From Microcyclospora pomicola (Eukaryota > Ascomycota > Dothideomycetes > Capnodiales): 64,000 bases of DNA. This document shows, piece by piece, positions 35,818-48,898 of the stretch. A program made the position numbers and the translations under genes. Below the pieces are notes generated by a model. It had not been told where the DNA came from. It searched no databases and worked only from the letters and a program-made list of their open reading frames with translations. Where the stretch lies: contig NHNY01000018.1 of the NCBI GenBank assembly GCA_002786065.1, positions 558,001-622,000 on the forward strand. The letters are read 5' to 3'. Each line of letters opens with the position of its first letter. The first letter of the stretch is position 1.

Positions 35818-36891
35818 TTGACCGCGTTTGTTGGCCCCTCCGCTCCATCTCTCGTCTTTATGAGAGTCATAGAATCAGCTCGTAAACATATTTCGACTCT
35901 CCCATCCTCTCCCTGGTGGTCATCAATACGCCTGTGCCCAAGAAACACAGCTCCATCCAGCTCATTCAAGCCCAGCATGTCTGCCAGGCCTTACATGACC
36001 CTCGAGAACGGGATGGACGATTTCCATCAGCATCTGCTCAAGTCGCGACGTGTCCTTGCCCTCCTAGGTGCTGGCCTATCCGCATCCTCAGGACTTCCAA
36101 CCTTCCGGGGCGCTGGTGGTCTCTGGCGCACGCACGACAGCGTTTCTCTTGCCACGCCCCAAGCCTTCCAACGCGACCCCGGTCTGGTCTGGCAGTTCTA
36201 CTCGTACCGACGGCACATGGCACTCAACGTGTCGCCCAACCCAGCTCACTACGCGCTCGCTGAACTCGGCCGCCGCATGCCCTCGTTCATGACGCTCAGC
36301 CAGAACGTGGATGGCTTGTCGCAGCGCGCAGATCACCCTCGTGCACAGCTTCAACTGCTGCATGGCACGCTGTTCAAAGTCCGTTGCACCTCGGCGCGCT
36401 GTGGCTATGAGGAAGAGAATTTCATCGACCCGATTGTACCAGCGCTGGCAATCCCTCGATCAGGCGAGGACGTGACCGCCTCTGCAAACCGACCAGCTCG
36501 CGACCTTGACATCAGCGACGCCAGTGTTTCCATCCCGACATTGTCGCCCAGCGACCTGCCGATCTGTCCACGCTGTCAGAATCATCTACTTCGACCAGGC
36601 GTAGTGTGGTTCGGCGAGGCTCTACCGACTGCGGTGCTTGACACCGTCGATGCATTCATCGCGGATCCAGAGCCCATCGACCTGATCATGGTCATTGGCA
36701 CGTCGGCGAAGGTGACGCCTGCCGCAGCTTACATCCAAGAGGCGCGTAATTGCGGGGCGCGGGTGTGTGTCGTCAACATGGATGCCAACGATGCCCCACC
36801 GGACGGCTATGAAGCAGGAGACTGGTTCTTCCAGGGTGATGCGGCGGAATTGGTCCCACGCATGCTGGAGCCGGTGATTGGGAGATTGTGA
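35818..36891 (+). CDS. Class III (SIRT5-like) NAD-dependent protein deacylase
   Basis: A single exon; 357 aa from 35818 or 304 aa from the ATG at 35977 (MSARPYMTLENG). The sirtuin core is complete: GAGLSASSGLPTFRG, QNVDGL, catalytic His in LLHGTLFKVRC, zinc pairs CTSARC and CPRC, and GTSAKVTPAA. The stretch VWQFYSYRRHM holds the Tyr-x-x-Arg pair that in human SIRT5 recognises succinyl/malonyl/glutaryl-lysine. Deacylation of acidic acyl-lysines is therefore more likely than plain deacetylation (inference). The extra N-terminus from 35818 is rich in Ser and Arg with one acidic residue and could be a mitochondrial leader; alternatively it is 5' leader sequence. It is divergent from the ICP55-like gene. 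Confidence 0.92.
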   Translation: MTAFVGPSAPSLVFMRVIESARKHISTLPSSPWWSSIRLCPRNTAPSSSFKPSMSARPYMTLENGMDDFHQHLLKSRRVLALLGAGLSASSGLPTFRGAGGLWRTHDSVSLATPQAFQRDPGLVWQFYSYRRHMALNVSPNPAHYALAELGRRMPSFMTLSQNVDGLSQRADHPRAQLQLLHGTLFKVRCTSARCGYEEENFIDPIVPALAIPRSGEDVTASANRPARDLDISDASVSIPTLSPSDLPICPRCQNHLLRPGVVWFGEALPTAVLDTVDAFIADPEPIDLIMVIGTSAKVTPAAAYIQEARNCGARVCVVNMDANDAPPDGYEAGDWFFQGDAAELVPRMLEPVIGRL

Positions 36892-37941: not shown

Positions 37942-39756
37942 TCATCCTTGCGAGACGACCACCCTTGCGCCTTCTTTCCCGAGAACGCCGCGCTCTCGCT
38001 CTTTGCCACGCGGGCTTCGATCCCGTCCTTTCCTACGATTCAAAAATCCCAGCATCCCGCTAGGCTTCTCGTTACGTCTCTCCTCACCGATCGTGCCTTG
38101 AGCTTGCTGATTTGCTATGGTGGCGCTCCAGGCAAGGTGCTCGTCCAGCTTCATGCTGCCTACGGACGTACTTCGTGACCCGATTTTGGGTCTTTTGGCT
38201 GGATGCGCCGAGACTGGACTTTGAGGCATGTTGTCGTCGAATGTCGCGACCCGGGATTTCAACACAAGATTGGGGCGGGGATGAGATGTAGGGCCTGGTG
38301 AATGCGGCTTTGGGAAGCCATTCGGAAGTGGTTGGTGCTGTTGAGGCTTGGTGCTGTTGGTATATGCAGTTGATAGCGCGGCAGTCGCCAAAGGTGGTGA
38401 GCCCTGGGGAGAGTTTGCCGCTGATGAACCAGTTCGAGACGCATTGCCTGATGTCTGCGGAAGCGATGGTGCCATCGAGTTGGGCGGTGGAGTTGTACGC
38501 GCCGGATTTACGGGCGAACTCGCTCCACTCTTCGTGTGTGCTGGTGCAGATGTTTGACTTGCGCGTGTAGCGGGTAAGGTGGACCTTCCAGCCTCATCTC
38601 GATCTGTAGACATGACCTCGTAGTTGAATGGCTCAAACATCGTCTCGATCATCTTGTGCAGCTCATCCGCGCGTATTTCCTGCTGTGTAGCGTCTTCCCG
38701 CAGTTCCGCTCGCGGCTTCTGCTTCCGCGCTCGCGCTTCCAACGGCGCCTCTTCGAGCAACAATTCCTCCAGATCGTATGTTGCATCGAAGTTCGTTTTA
38801 TCGCTCGAGGGGCAGAAAATCGGATCGATTTCTTTCCTCTCCAGAGCCTCAAAATCCAACTCACGGAAGAAGGGATTGTCAGTAAAGGTCCCAAACCCGA
38901 TCGCGCCAATTCGCAGGCTTTTATCCTTCTCCAGCAACGAGCTGATGGCGTGGAGGCAGGGCATTGATACTGGTGGAGACGTGATTGGGAAGGGCGGATC
39001 TGCTTTCACAATTGCTGTGGCCAGAGCTTCTTGATGACTTCCTTCGAATGGTCGTTTGTTATATATGCATTCGTAGAAGAGTACACCAAGTGACCACCAG
39101 TCGACTTGCGACGTATAACCTTTCCCCCTGTAGACTTCCGGAGCAAGATATGCCAGCGTACCTGACTTGCTCGTGAGCTGCTTCCCAGGTGTGAAGTCAG
39201 ACGCCACATTGAAATCCGCCAGATGCACGTGACCTTCGGAATCGAGCAGGACGTTGTCTGGTTTCACGTCGCGATGGACGATGCCTTGAGAATGAATGTA
39301 TCGTAGAGCACAGCCGAGTTCCGCGATCCAGAAGCGGACTGCCTCTTCCGTGAACGTCTTTCGTGTGATGTGGAACCGCAAGTCACCACCAGTCATCAAG
39401 TCCACCACGATATATCTGAGTCGCGATTAGACAAGCCAGCACTCTGAATGTTGTATGCACACAAAAACGCCGACTCACAGATATTCCACATCTTGAAAGC
39501 TATACCGCAGATTGCAAAGGAACGGGTGGTTCAAGTGCTCCAGCATCCGCCGTTCACGGATGATATTCCGTACGCTTTCTGACCTCACGACCTCGTCCTT
39601 CCGTATGTATTTCAAGGCAAATGTGAGCCCTGTATCCTTCCTTTCAACGATGCGCACTTTGCCAAAAGCTCCCTTGCCCACCACGCGGAGAAGACGGAAG
39701 TGATTGAGATTGACCTCGTCGGTGAGTACGACAGGCTTGCCGCTGGAATTGCCCAT
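37942..39756 (-). CDS. YANK/STK32-like serine/threonine kinase (AGC-related)
   Basis: Exons 39479..39756 and 37942..39415 encode 583 aa. The start MGNSSGKP is an N-myristoylation consensus, so membrane association is likely. Kinase motifs in order are the glycine loop GKGAFGKV (27-34), ATP lysine in FALKYIRK (Lys49), HRDVKPDN (HRD 140-142), and then DFN at 160-162 in place of DFG, followed by SGTLAYLAPEVY and WWSLGVLFYE. The DFN variant, myristoylation site and C-terminal extension match animal YANK/STK32 kinases. The tail after about residue 380 is disordered and Pro/Ser-rich, ending in basic residues. The cellular role in fungi is not established. Confidence 0.9.
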
Positions 39757-43236: not shown

Positions 43237-44197
43237 CTAGAGCTCATCCATAGCTCCCGCGGGCTGTTCATCCTCTTCGTCCTCGTCGAAGCTGCCTACA
43301 CTGCTCATCTCATCGCTGTCGTCCGTCCCGTCACCGGCATCATCGACTTGCTCTTTGGTTGCGTATCGCGTCACATACTCTGGAATCGACCATTAGTAAC
43401 GACGCCGTACAAAGCCCATTACTAATCAAGAGTTTCTCGATCAGGCTGATCGATATTGCTTACCCTTAACCTTCGACTCGTAACCCTTGGTATCTCGCAT
43501 CATCAACGCAGCAGCCTCGCCATTCAGCGGATCGGTGGGGTTGGGGTATCGTAATAGTTGTGGCAGGAAGACTTCGAAGATGTTTACCATATCGTACATC
43601 GGCGACCATGTCTGGTTGATGACATCGAGACAAACGCTGCCGGACAGTTCATCGATGTTCGGGTGGAAGATCCGATTGACAAAGCCAATGCTTGGGCTCT
43701 TGTATGGGTATTGATCGGGCAACTCCACGTGGATCTTCCAAAGACCACCAGAGAAAGGTGCTTTCATACGTTAGCGGCTGCAAATTTGGAAGGATCTGAG
43801 AATCTGCAGCTGTACATACTTTCGTCTGGGCCCTTGAACCGAACGTAGAATTCTTGCCTAGAGCTGCATTAGTTGCACAAACGTCGTCAATCTTCCAAGA
43901 CATAACGAACACTGCAAGGAATGGATGTCAGTGAAGGTGACTCCAATGAGGGCGAAGACTTTATGTTGTGCTTGACCTACTGTTATCGTTGACCAGAGTG
44001 ACCTCATAGTCGCTCATCAGCCTATACATACATTAGTAAGGTCCTAGAAGATATCTGGCTTCATTCACAGTAGCTTATGCATGATCCGTACATCTTCATG
44101 ACCTGCAATATAACAACATCAGCATAGAACGACCGATGATGTTCGCAAGCGATGTCCAACCTACATCAGTCTCGATCCGACGCTTGGGACTACTCAT
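43237..44197 (-). CDS. ubc8: Ubiquitin-conjugating enzyme E2, UBC8/UBE2H type
   Basis: The minus-strand exons read 44165..44197, 44092..44102 (11 nt), 43981..44021, 43911 (1 nt), 43820..43857, 43464..43760 and 43237..43379, giving 187 aa with all phases closing. The product is [20 protein letters not shown], then [20 protein letters not shown], then [20 protein letters not shown]. The catalytic Cys lies in [20 protein letters not shown], and the C-terminus is acidic ([19 protein letters not shown]), as in UBC8. Yeast Ubc8 works with the GID ligase in degrading gluconeogenic enzymes. The Met of NDNMQEF is obtained only by a one-base exon. An alternative donor at 43976 would give NDNSRQEF instead. 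Intron 5 ends in AAAG after a CTAAC branch site. Confidence 0.9.
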
Positions 44198-45266: not shown

Positions 45267-46108
45267 ATGTCCAACTCAATCCAAGAGCTGTTCTCCCTCA
45301 ACGGACAGACCGCATTGGTCACTGGCGGAACCAGAGGAATCGGTCAAGCCATGGCAATTGCACTGGCAGAAAGTGGTGCGGATCTCTTACTCGTCCAGGT
45401 CTGTCTGAACGCCCATTGATGAAGGACGTATGAGCTGACAGAGCATCTCAGCGAGACGACTCCAATCAAATCACTAAAGAGGCCGTCGAGAAACTCGGAC
45501 GAAAAGCCACAATCTACACAGCAGACCTATCGTCCGCTTCATCCATGTCTGCTCTCGTTCCCCAAATCCTGAAAGACGGCCACACGATCCACATCCTACT
45601 CAACTGCGGCGGCATCCAACGTCGCCACCCGTCCCATCAATTCCCCGACGATGAGTGGAACCAGGTGCTGCAAGTGAACCTCAGCACCGTCTTCACGCTA
45701 TGCCGGGACGTGGGTGCACATATGCTCTCACGCGATCTGGATACGCACGGCCGCCGCGGGAGTATCATCAACATCGCCTCGTTGCTGTCGTTTCAGGGTG
45801 GCATCACGGTGCCAGCGTACGCCGCGAGCAAGGGCGGCGTGGCGCAGCTCACGAAAGCGCTCTCGAACGAGTGGGCGGGCAAGGGTATCAGCGTCAATGC
45901 CATCGCGCCTGGCTACATCGCGACCGACATGAACGAAGCGCTGATGAAGGATGAAGCCCGCGCAGACAGTATCTTGGCGCGGATCCCGGCAGGCAGATGG
46001 GGCTCGACGGATGATTTCAAGGGTAGCGTTGTATTCTTGGCTAGTCGAGCGTCCGGCTATGTCAGTGGAGAGGTGTTGACTGTGGATGGGGGTTGGATGG
46101 GCCGGTAG
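45267..46108 (+). CDS. Short-chain dehydrogenase/reductase, 2-deoxy-gluconate 3-dehydrogenase (KduD)-like
   Basis: Exons 45267..45398 and 45452..46108 encode 262 aa. The cofactor motif is [16 protein letters not shown], with the NNAG-equivalent as NCGGIQRR. The catalytic Ser is in [11 protein letters not shown], the YxxxK in [10 protein letters not shown], and the tail [11 protein letters not shown] is typical of classical SDRs. The GIQRRHP and QVNLSTVF stretches resemble the KduD/gluconate 5-dehydrogenase-like group that handles sugar acids from pectin or gluconate breakdown; this substrate assignment is inference. The start at 45267 is preferred to the in-frame ATG at 45183, because the latter would add 28 residues before the canonical N-terminus. 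Confidence 0.9.
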
Positions 46109-46416: not shown

Positions 46417-48368
46417 CTACTTGTGGGTCACTCCCTCGACCGGCATCGGGGTGACATCAGTAACCTCCGCGGCCTTTGGCTTCGAAGCGATATCCTGATC
46501 CTTCATGAATGGGAAAGTGAGGACCTCCTTGATGGAGTAATGATTGGTCAAGAACATGACCATGCGATCGATACCCATGCCTGTCAAAACACAATGGTTA
46601 GCACAATTCTTTACTGTTTGGATGAATATAGCGACGACTTACCCCAGCCACCAGTTGGTGGAAGACCATATTCCATCGCAGTCAAGAAAGCCTCGTCAAG
46701 GACTTGTGCCTCGTCATCACCTTGGGCCTTCTGTCGTGCCTGCTCCTCAAATCTCAGTCGCTGATCAAAGGGGTCGTTCAACTCAGTGTATGCGTTCACG
46801 ATCTCCTTCTTGCAGACGAACGCTTCGAATCTCTCACACAATCCAGAGTGTTCACGGTGGTACTTGGCCAGAGGACTCATCATCTGTGGATGTCCAGTGA
46901 TGAAAGTGGGATTTATGCACTTCTCCTCGATAAACTCACCCACAAGCTTGTCCAGCATGCGAGCATTGGTGAGAGGTGGCGTACACTCCACCTTCACCTT
47001 CTTAAGCATTTTCTTGAGGAAATCGTTGGTCTCTTGCGTGTGCAGCTCGTTGCTTGGAGGGAACTTCTCGTCACATGCTTCCTCAAGCGCGGTCATCATG
47101 TCCACGCGCTTCCACGGCTTGGCCCAGTTGACGTTGTAAGTCTCGCCGGTCTGTGTGTTGAAAGTGGTTTGTAGTGAACCGCAGATCTCCATGACCATGC
47201 TTTCGACGAGCTCCTCGGTCCGTTCCATCACATCGTACACGTCGGCGAACGCCTCGTAGTACTCGCACGTAGTGAATTCTGGGTTGTGAGTCAGATCGAT
47301 GCCCTCATTTCTGAATTGACGGCCGATCTCGTAGACTTTGTGGATGCCACCAACGATCACTTGCTTGAGCGGTAGTTCGGTAGCGATACGAAGGGCAAGA
47401 GTCATCTTGAGGTCGTTGTGCTCGGTCTCGAATGGCTTGGCCGTGGCACCGCCAGCGTTCTTGAGCAGAATCGGTGTCTCGAGCTCGTAGAAGCCGTTGC
47501 TATCGAAGTAGTTGCGGACGTGCTTGACGATCCTCGAGCGAGCCTTGAAGGTCTCAACAGTGCTCTTGTTCATGATGAGATCTAGATGTCTGTTTCGGTA
47601 CCGCTCCTCCTGGTCTTTGAAGCCATAGTGCTCGGACGGGATCTGGTGCAAGCAGGGTGCAAGCAGGGTCACCTCGCGCGCGAATATAGAAAGCTCGCCA
47701 GGGTTGTCCTCTCTTTTGGGGCTGGTTCTTCCGGGGAATCCCTTGACACCGATGATGTCTCCTCTGCGTAGAATATCGTGCTGCTCAGCAAATGGGATCG
47801 TGGATTTAGTGTGTAGGTTCGTGGCCATGATCTGTGTCTCGGCGCCATCAACAGACACCTCGTAGAATCGCAAGTTCTCACCCGCGGTACGGGTGTTATA
47901 AATTCGGCAGCCCACTGCAATCTCCTTGTCCTCGACGGTCTCACCCTTCTTGAGATGACCATACTCCTTTTCGAAGTTTCGCAAATCGTACGTGACATGA
48001 AACTTGTGCGGGTACGGGTTGGGGCTATTGGTCTCCTTCATTCGCTTGACAGCACGCGACCGAATCTCGAAGTATTGGTTTGGGTTGAGCTTCTCCTCAT
48101 CTTCACCAGCAGATGTCTTCTTCTTCGATGCTGGTGGAGCTTGTCTTTGGCTTTCGCGTTCGGCTTTCTGAGCCTCCTTCTCGCGCTGCTTCTGACGCTT
48201 CTTCAACTCCGACTTGGAAACCATCTCCCCAGTCACTTCATCTTTCTGTAAGTTTGGCGTAGTCTCCGTGGAAGCACTGGCACTTCCACCGGTAGTGAGC
48301 TGCGAGACTTGATCGGCGACATTGGACACTGCGTCCTTGACAGCATCAGCAGCTTGCTGAGCAGCCAT
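46417..48368 (-). CDS. krs1: Lysyl-tRNA synthetase, cytosolic type
   Basis: Exons 46643..48368 and 46417..46580 encode 629 aa. The N-terminus bears the eukaryote-specific lysine-rich helix (SKSELKKRQKQREKEAQKAE). An OB-fold anticodon-binding domain follows (about 110-225), then the class II core with motif 2 at EGIDLTHNPEFTTCEYYEAF. The motif 3 region is completed across the 62-nt intron (GLPPTGGWG, then MGIDRMVMFLTNHYSIKEVL). It charges tRNA-Lys in the cytosol. No mitochondrial presequence is seen. An unspliced reading would end at 46611 and lose motif 3, so the intron is required. Confidence 0.97.
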
Positions 48369-48898
48369 GGTGAGAAGGTGTGAGAGATTGAATGGAATAG
48401 GGAAGTGAGGAGAGTTTCGCGACTACATATATTCAGGAAAACATGAATCACTCTGGTGACTCTACCACCAAATTCACATCTTTTCGTGGGGTAATTAGAT
48501 AGAGGCGGGGCATGAGTGCCTGAGGCGGAAAACCATTGGCAACGAAGCACTGTGGGCTTAAGGGATGCCTTTCTGGACAGAATGAGTTTTGATAAGGATA
48601 TATACACATGTCAACGCCATACTTGTCATACCAGCGCCTTGCGACTCATAGTGCATTCAGCGACTGCTCTCTAAAGCACAGAGCGAAACGATGGACGCAC
48701 TTCTGGGCGCCGAGATTGCCACTCGTGTCCGGCCTAGTGTAACAACAATACCGCCACCCTCGCATTCCACCGCATGTTTATACAGAACACTCAGCCCAAT
48801 GCCTGACCTTCAGAGATAGATGCTATTCTAGTGGATGGCTTGAAACTTCCCTTGCAGATATTTGCTGGTGGTGGCATCAAATCAAAGCTTGGAGCGCT
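48369..48898. other. Intergenic region, krs1 promoter and bye1 3' end
   Basis: 530 bases. An ATATAT element on the minus strand lies about 60 bases above the krs1 start. Nothing else is supported. Confidence 0.5.

Follow-up and report, generated by a model that had tools for sequence, protein, structure and literature searches.

In the plant literature, one-nucleotide microexons are on record in the land-plant genes APC11 (PMC4674806) and VPS55 (PMC8831610), where they are described as conserved from flowering plants to moss and/or Selaginella and as missing from reference annotations (PMC8831610). The authors of the APC11 work argued for removal of the introns by intron definition, one after the other (PMC4674806), and for VPS55 some plants are described as switching between inclusion and retention, with two proteins as the outcome (PMC8831610). 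For fungi, a study of the Fusarium P450 gene CYP621A describes a one-nucleotide exon that its authors call the second example (PMC12940212). Outside the spliceosomal world, two further reports describe group II introns separated by a single base, in the mitochondrial rnl of fungi (PMC12308204) and in the mitochondrial cox1 of placozoans (PMC5436844). A first-pass annotation of the DNA analyzed here, which put forward a further one-base exon, was right to call such exons rare but too narrow in naming a single plant case, since published examples come from two or more plant genes and from a fungal one.

In this work we analyze that further case, base T43911 of a UBC8/UBE2H-type gene on the minus strand of a 64,000-nucleotide stretch (the window) of contig NHNY01000018.1 of Microcyclospora pomicola, whose assembly comprises 23.4 Mb in 58 contigs. 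From the anatomy of the sequence, the splice scores, the Met of homologues on short contigs and the pattern of errors in published gene models we infer, with high confidence, that T43911 is a constitutive one-nucleotide exon whose flanking introns, I3 and I4, would be removed stepwise, in an arrangement probably ancestral to Pezizomycotina or nearly so. Among the listings and passages covered by a search of the open-licence PMC literature, none reports a one-base exon in UBC8.

The gene and the middle base of its Met29 codon

The features of the gene are collected in Table 1, together with neighboring gene-finder models identified by eye. Judged by its sequence, the minus-strand gene is a UBC8/UBE2H orthologue, its product carrying the UBC fold as a UQ_con domain (PF00179) and having as its closest solved structures 8pmq_E (E2-24 kDa) and 8pjn/2z5d (UBE2H). 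Residue C85, in the 14-residue stretch of exon 6, aligns with the Cys of 2z5d and is taken here to be the catalytic Cys; the role of the enzyme is presumably ubiquitin transfer in the GID/CTLH pathway. Among the best 120 of more than 5000 hits, the highest-identity fungal matches are Baudoinia (90%) and Teratosphaeria and others (89%), and the top-scoring match is a plant model with a duplicated domain; the fungal matches by themselves place the source among the filamentous ascomycetes, probably in Dothideomycetes. A 42-residue protein query found no match in the source's own genome, as expected for a gene split in pieces, and tRNA and Rfam scans of the whole window returned nothing. With its 11 nt, exon 2 appears to be a second micro-exon in addition to the one-base exon, both within a row of four short exons.

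Table 1. Features of the UBC8-type gene and its neighbors, in window coordinates
Feature	Position	Strand	Description	Basis
UBC8 gene	44197-43237	minus	seven exons; encodes a 187-residue E2 ubiquitin-conjugating enzyme	
Exon 1	44165..44197	minus	33 nt; ATG start	
Intron I1	44103..44164	minus	62 nt; GTAGGT...TTGCAG	gene finder
Exon 2	44092..44102	minus	11-nt micro-exon	gene finder
Intron I2	44022..44091	minus	70 nt; GTACGG...GTATAG	gene finder
Exon 3	43981..44021	minus	41 nt; ends in AAC-A (...GATAACA), the final A being base 1 of the Met29 codon	
Intron I3	43912..43980	minus	69 nt; phase 1; GTAGGT, CTGAC branch (A 43928), TTGCAG	splice scores
Predicted one-nucleotide exon	43911	minus	T; middle base of the Met29 codon	gene finder, splice scores, homologue Met
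Intron I4	43858..43910	minus	53 nt; phase 2; GTTCGT, CTAAT branch (A 43869; ACTAAT), CTCTAG	splice scores
Exon 5	43820..43857	minus	38 nt; starts G-CAA-GAA-TTC, the first G being base 3 of the Met29 codon	
Intron I5	43761..43819	minus	59 nt; GTATGT...TGAAAG	gene finder
Exon 6	43464..43760	minus	297 nt; contains a 14-residue stretch with an active-site-type Cys	gene finder
Intron I6	43380..43463	minus	84 nt; GTAAGC...TTCCAG	gene finder
Exon 7	43237..43379	minus	143 nt, including the stop codon	gene finder
Neighbor, presumably sirtuin-like	35995-36891	plus		gene-finder model, read by eye
Neighbor, presumably AGC-type kinase-like	37942-39756	minus		gene-finder model, read by eye
Neighbor, presumably short-chain dehydrogenase-like	45351-46108	plus		gene-finder model, read by eye
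Neighbor, presumably lysyl-tRNA synthetase-like	46417-48656	minus		gene-finder model, read by eye

The exon ends, the two introns and the motifs that the first-pass annotation had placed around 43858..43981 were all recovered as described. Exon 3 ends in phase 1 and exon 5, which opens from 43857 with GCAAGAATTC, begins in phase 2; a direct join of the two breaks the frame, and one base (mod 3) is required from between them. T43911, preceded by AG and followed by GT, has a plausible U2 intron on either side and completes the codon as A/T/G (slashes denote splice junctions), that is Met29, to give NDN-M-QEFYVRF. By computation, skipping of this base shifts the frame to a stop at codon 100, 120 nt upstream of the last exon junction, retention of I3 leads to a stop after 34 codons, and retention of I4 shifts the frame. 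The base is thus needed to join these exons in frame; three other in-frame joins exist, and across the four readings the Pfam domain scores 136.2 bits with Met, the highest value, 133.4 with SR, 130.3 with ISR and 128.8 with KF.

Homologues, splice scores and the competing in-frame joins

Three protein searches, each contributing the best 120 of more than 5000 hits, yielded 211 distinct homologues. Named genome annotations account for 157 of these (Pezizomycotina 148, other fungi 7, plants 2, with the subphylum assigned by general taxonomy and checked for eight species). The remaining 54, proteins without a name, were drawn from metagenome or transcript collections, in which their contigs measure at most 7.3 kb (for one, no contig is listed). 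We read this contig-type set as largely transcript-derived, because it carries the frame of an intron-rich gene unbroken on contigs that are mostly about 1 kb long. Met occupies the column of position 29 in all 54 listed contig-type homologues. Plain Met is found in 19 of the 148 listed Pezizomycotina genome models, four Cladosporium models among them, which perhaps reflect intron loss or a correct model, and is missing from the other 129. Searches for related loci in viral and genome contigs, and tblastn against plasmids, found no genomic DNA of relatives.

Splice signals were scored with a simple, homology-free exon-intron model trained on 264 kb of the same genome (200 kb plus the window), which in its last training round comprised 92 genes and 265 introns. 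The donor, acceptor, branch and length estimates were redone without the UBC8 gene, on 259 predicted introns, and intron scores, in nats, consist of intron terms only, the coding terms for the few extra bases being left out. The gene finder itself places T43911 as a one-base exon. With the CTCTAG acceptor this arrangement scores 2.31 (I3 2.45, I4 -0.15), so that the two flanking introns, which had been described as looking real, together score above either single-intron reading of the region. In 5000 dinucleotide shuffles of the interval between the exons, with the donor hexamer and the last acceptor held fixed, 220 could be divided at AG-N-GT in such a way that each half scored more than -5 nats; none reached the real score.

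The gene finder also proposed a second one-base exon, GGAG/T/GTATGT, at about window coordinate 89416 on the minus strand of the same contig, downstream of the window within the fetched 622001-662000 stretch. This exon is probably false, because it adjoins a five-base exon and follows a weak acceptor, and since another such exon was placed in 264 kb the gene finder alone is not specific for one-base exons. We take the own-genome splice model as support for a one-base exon at T43911, and not as proof.

The first of the other in-frame joins dispenses with the one-base exon by means of a single 119-nt intron, from a GTCAAG donor (43976) to CTCTAG (43858), and does, as had been proposed, read NDN-SR-QEF in frame. 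It calls for one splicing event only, and its length does not exclude it, because 40 of the 259 predicted introns are at least 119 nt long; the equivalent +4 donor is, moreover, the one used by 26 of the 148 listed Pezizomycotina models. Its donor, however, occurs in none of the 259 predicted introns, which use GTAGGT 14 times and GTTCGT five times, and only 1.2% of donors score lower. The total of -4.98 nats places it some 7 nats (intron terms) behind the one-base exon, and it would put Ser-Arg where all 54 listed contig-type homologues have Met and none has S-x. We consider this reading very improbable; an mRNA reading AACATGCAAG would be incompatible with it.

A further in-frame join had gone unlisted in the first-pass annotation: a single 128-nt intron from GTAGGT (43980) to GCAAG (43853), giving NDN-KFYVRF. 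Its donor is good and an equivalent acceptor appears in 11 of the 148 listed models, but the acceptor is weak, the total is -4.75 nats, two conserved residues are deleted, the Pfam score is the lowest of the four and KF is absent from the 54 listed contig-type homologues. Its probability is next to negligible, and CAAGAATTC after exon 3 in the mRNA would be incompatible with it.

The remaining join concerns the acceptor of I4. Use of the CAG six bases earlier (43864) does yield NDN-ISR-QEF, as had been noted, but it was wrongly set among the competitors of the one-base exon, because T43911 is still used as one. As the main or an alternative product this form is favored by its score (3.12 versus 2.31 for CTCTAG), by being the gene finder's first choice and by a similar shift in a Beauveria model (NDN-IR-QEF). 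We nonetheless reject it, as a very remote prospect, because only 5 nt separate the branch A from the AG, a distance of 5 nt or less being found in 9 of the 195 introns whose branch site is good, and because the homologues have Met: two residues would be added at a conserved codon, the Pfam score is the lowest but one of the four, and ISR is not seen in the 54 listed contig-type homologues. The two acceptors, CAG and CTCTAG, lie six bases apart (43858-43869, minus strand), a spacing with which an in-frame M/ISR alternative is possible.

Errors in the gene models of relatives and their spread

Among the 148 listed Pezizomycotina models, 114 carry an indel at the Met29 junction, as compared with 14 at I1, 71 at I2 (which adjoins the 11-nt exon), 3 at I5 and 3 at I6. 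The same test on the 54 contig-type homologues gave none at the Met29 junction, 7 at I1, 3 at I2 and none at I5 or I6. Sorted by what they place at the junction, the 148 models comprise 19 with Met, 26 with S plus one residue, 11 with KF, 17 with an M-start that reads on into I4, 8 with S...V, 8 with a single R, 54 with mixed errors and 5 that could not be parsed (two long insertions without a QEF end and three with upstream residues lost).

Several of these classes can be decoded. The 26 S-plus-NNG models fit a donor that slipped four bases to the second GT of A/GTNNGT, and the residue after S (K 14, M 5, E 3, T 2, G 1, Q 1) is consistent with donors GTAAGT, GTATGT, GTGAGT, GTACGT and so on. 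The 11 KF models fit an acceptor that slipped five bases to GCAAG/AATTC, and the 8 S...V models fit a read-through of I3 to AG-T followed by a join to G. The donor slip of +4 and the acceptor slip of +5 each add one base mod 3, the shortfall that T makes good. The S-x of published models is the choice expected of a gene finder that is forbidden a one-base exon.

The inserted peptides obey the same logic. Their first residue is ANN-codable in 105 of 105 cases (39.5% of interior residues), and their last is NNG-codable in all 98 that stand directly before QEF (interior 73%); they enter in phase 1 and leave in phase 2, a combination that is out of reach of one intron. In 51 of the 98 the closing residue is R or V, the outcome expected of a read-on to AG/G or AG-T/G (interior R 5.8%, V 7.8%). 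In the 17 M-start insertions the next residue is TNN-codable in 16 and V then follows in 14 (interior 36% and 7.8%), the M-TNN-V pattern expected when A/T/GTNNGT is read on, and the misfit is a Mollisiaceae model incompatible with T/GT. A true coding extension in the M-Y-V models was considered and rejected, because relatives disagree in its length and it is missing from the 54 contig-type homologues.

Five Fusarium models (three species, four distinct peptides) read through the entire region, and each peptide admits exactly one A/GT...AG/T/GTnnG...AG/G split with introns of at least 40 nt, the two introns measuring 47 and 52 nt in F. coffeatum and F. flagelliforme and 49 and 56 nt in F. pseudograminearum, with branch-compatible residues in both. 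After shuffling, the four peptides admitted the split in 424, 83, 75 and 542 of 5000 cases, and in 60, 19, 29 and 140 of 5000 the split came with both branch sites. The 30-residue peptide of Claviceps africana contains no AG/T/GT split.

The eight single-R models come from Baudoinia, Dothistroma, Monilinia, Trichophaea, Terfezia claveryi, Microthyrium, Ascochyta and Ascodesmis. Arg as the true residue 29 was set aside, being found in these 8 of 148 models only and suspected of being a forced alignment; we think that a transcript with one extra base may have been forced onto an intron G (A+G+G). One-residue oddities of this kind at introns might flag more one-base exons in public annotations.

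Among the listed models, 83 of the 93 genus labels (two of which are family names) include at least one model without plain Met. For species whose class was looked up, broken models occur in eight classes: Pezizomycetes, Lecanoromycetes, Coniocybomycetes, Geoglossomycetes, Dothideomycetes, Leotiomycetes, Eurotiomycetes and Sordariomycetes, although the Geoglossum error, being one of the mixed ones, carries little weight. The M-TNN-V signature is seen in five of them (Dothideomycetes, Eurotiomycetes, Sordariomycetes, Lecanoromycetes and Coniocybomycetes), and Morchella shows the AG-T read-on.

An exon that is real in M. pomicola would also be compatible with a pattern in relatives that reflects, in the main, routine mistakes of annotation or origins that recurred independently. 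The evidence from gene models is indirect, misannotation affects short exons in general (as at I2, in 71 of 148) and the 54 mixed errors are only partly decoded. Against this stand the ordinary junctions I5 and I6, wrong in 3 of 148 models each, the uniform start and end letters of the insertions, and the recurrence of M-TNN-V in five classes and of the AG-T read-on in Morchella, which together make such an explanation decidedly unlikely.

The one-base exon thus appears, from these comparisons, to be common to many filamentous ascomycetes; what the first-pass annotation had treated as an oddity of one gene looks, from the homologue Met and the model errors, like a conserved feature. Because broken models occur in eight classes, Pezizomycetes included, it probably dates back to the ancestor of Pezizomycotina or close to it. 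Plain Met is found in all seven listed fungal models from outside Pezizomycotina (Saitoella, Lipomyces, Gamsiella, Borealophlyctis, Chytridium, Paraphysoderma and Neocallimastix), all read as protein sequences, and is consistent with an exon that arose in the ancestor of Pezizomycotina or a little earlier. The proposal of T43911 as a one-base exon is hence supported by the gene finder, the splice scores, the 54 Met homologues and the decodable errors.

Predicted splicing path and comparison with known systems

I3 and I4 would be ordinary short U2-type introns lying one base apart inside the Met29 codon, excised one after the other by intron definition to leave A/T/G. Consecutive removal is suggested because the I3 acceptor and the I4 donor adjoin and could hardly both be occupied. 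T43911 would probably never be recognized as an exon itself: once either intron had been removed, the other would be an ordinary intron whose flanking exons are of the usual length. We lean slightly towards I3 being removed before I4, because I3 scores higher and its removal would improve the context of the I4 donor, from AGT/GTTCGT (3.39) to CAT/GTTCGT (4.39) in the splice model. The arrangement has probably been retained because a conserved enzyme would be read out of frame if the base were lost or skipped. It seems unlikely that the base is kept as a frame switch, with the efficiency of two-step splicing setting the level of UBC8 across filamentous ascomycetes; skipping or intron retention would then lead, through a frame shift or early stop, to mRNA decay.

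If the exon is real, this junction offers a ready test of splicing order where an acceptor adjoins a donor, in a gene present in most filamentous-fungus laboratories. Most of the UBC8 models examined (129 of the 148 listed) are wrong at the Met29 codon, and such errors in protein databases may offer a cheap route to further one-base exons.

Stwintrons, as described in three papers (PMC9024468, PMC12403724, PMC5639578), resemble the UBC8 arrangement in being adjoining U2 introns of filamentous ascomycetes that are removed consecutively. What sets stwintrons apart is that a splice site of the external intron is split by the internal intron, whereas both UBC8 donors are contiguous and the base stays in the predicted mRNA. 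We rejected a stwintron reading of I3 and I4 because GTAGGT and GTTCGT are each contiguous and a D-type ([D1,2]) arrangement from the second GT of GTAGGT breaks the frame; no ubiquitin or micro-exon terms were found in these three papers. The mitochondrial rnl and cox1 cases likewise leave a single base as an exon, but the introns described there are group II introns and those of UBC8 are spliceosomal.

APC11 and VPS55 are closer, with one base between two spliceosomal introns, essential to the frame, left out of annotations and spread over a wide clade. They concern other genes in another kingdom, and the sources as cited report them as RNA-verified, whereas the UBC8 case is known here from sequence. 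APC11 is also a ubiquitin-system gene, a feature shared with UBC8 probably by coincidence. The CYP621A exon, in the account cited above (PMC12940212), is like the UBC8 one in being fungal, in supplying the central base of a codon that belongs to a conserved motif, in lying between a phase-1 and a phase-2 exon and in being wrong in most models. Its base is a G in a Gly codon, it is described for Fusarium species only, and RNA reads confirm it in two species; the UBC8 base lies in a conserved, housekeeping-type gene, with a pattern seen across many classes. The nuclear genes with a one-nucleotide exon that we found in print are APC11, VPS55 and CYP621A, and UBC8 would be the fourth. If the comparison holds, it would be the first such exon to extend across many fungal classes in a conserved gene, and would indicate that one-base exons can persist for very long in two kingdoms.
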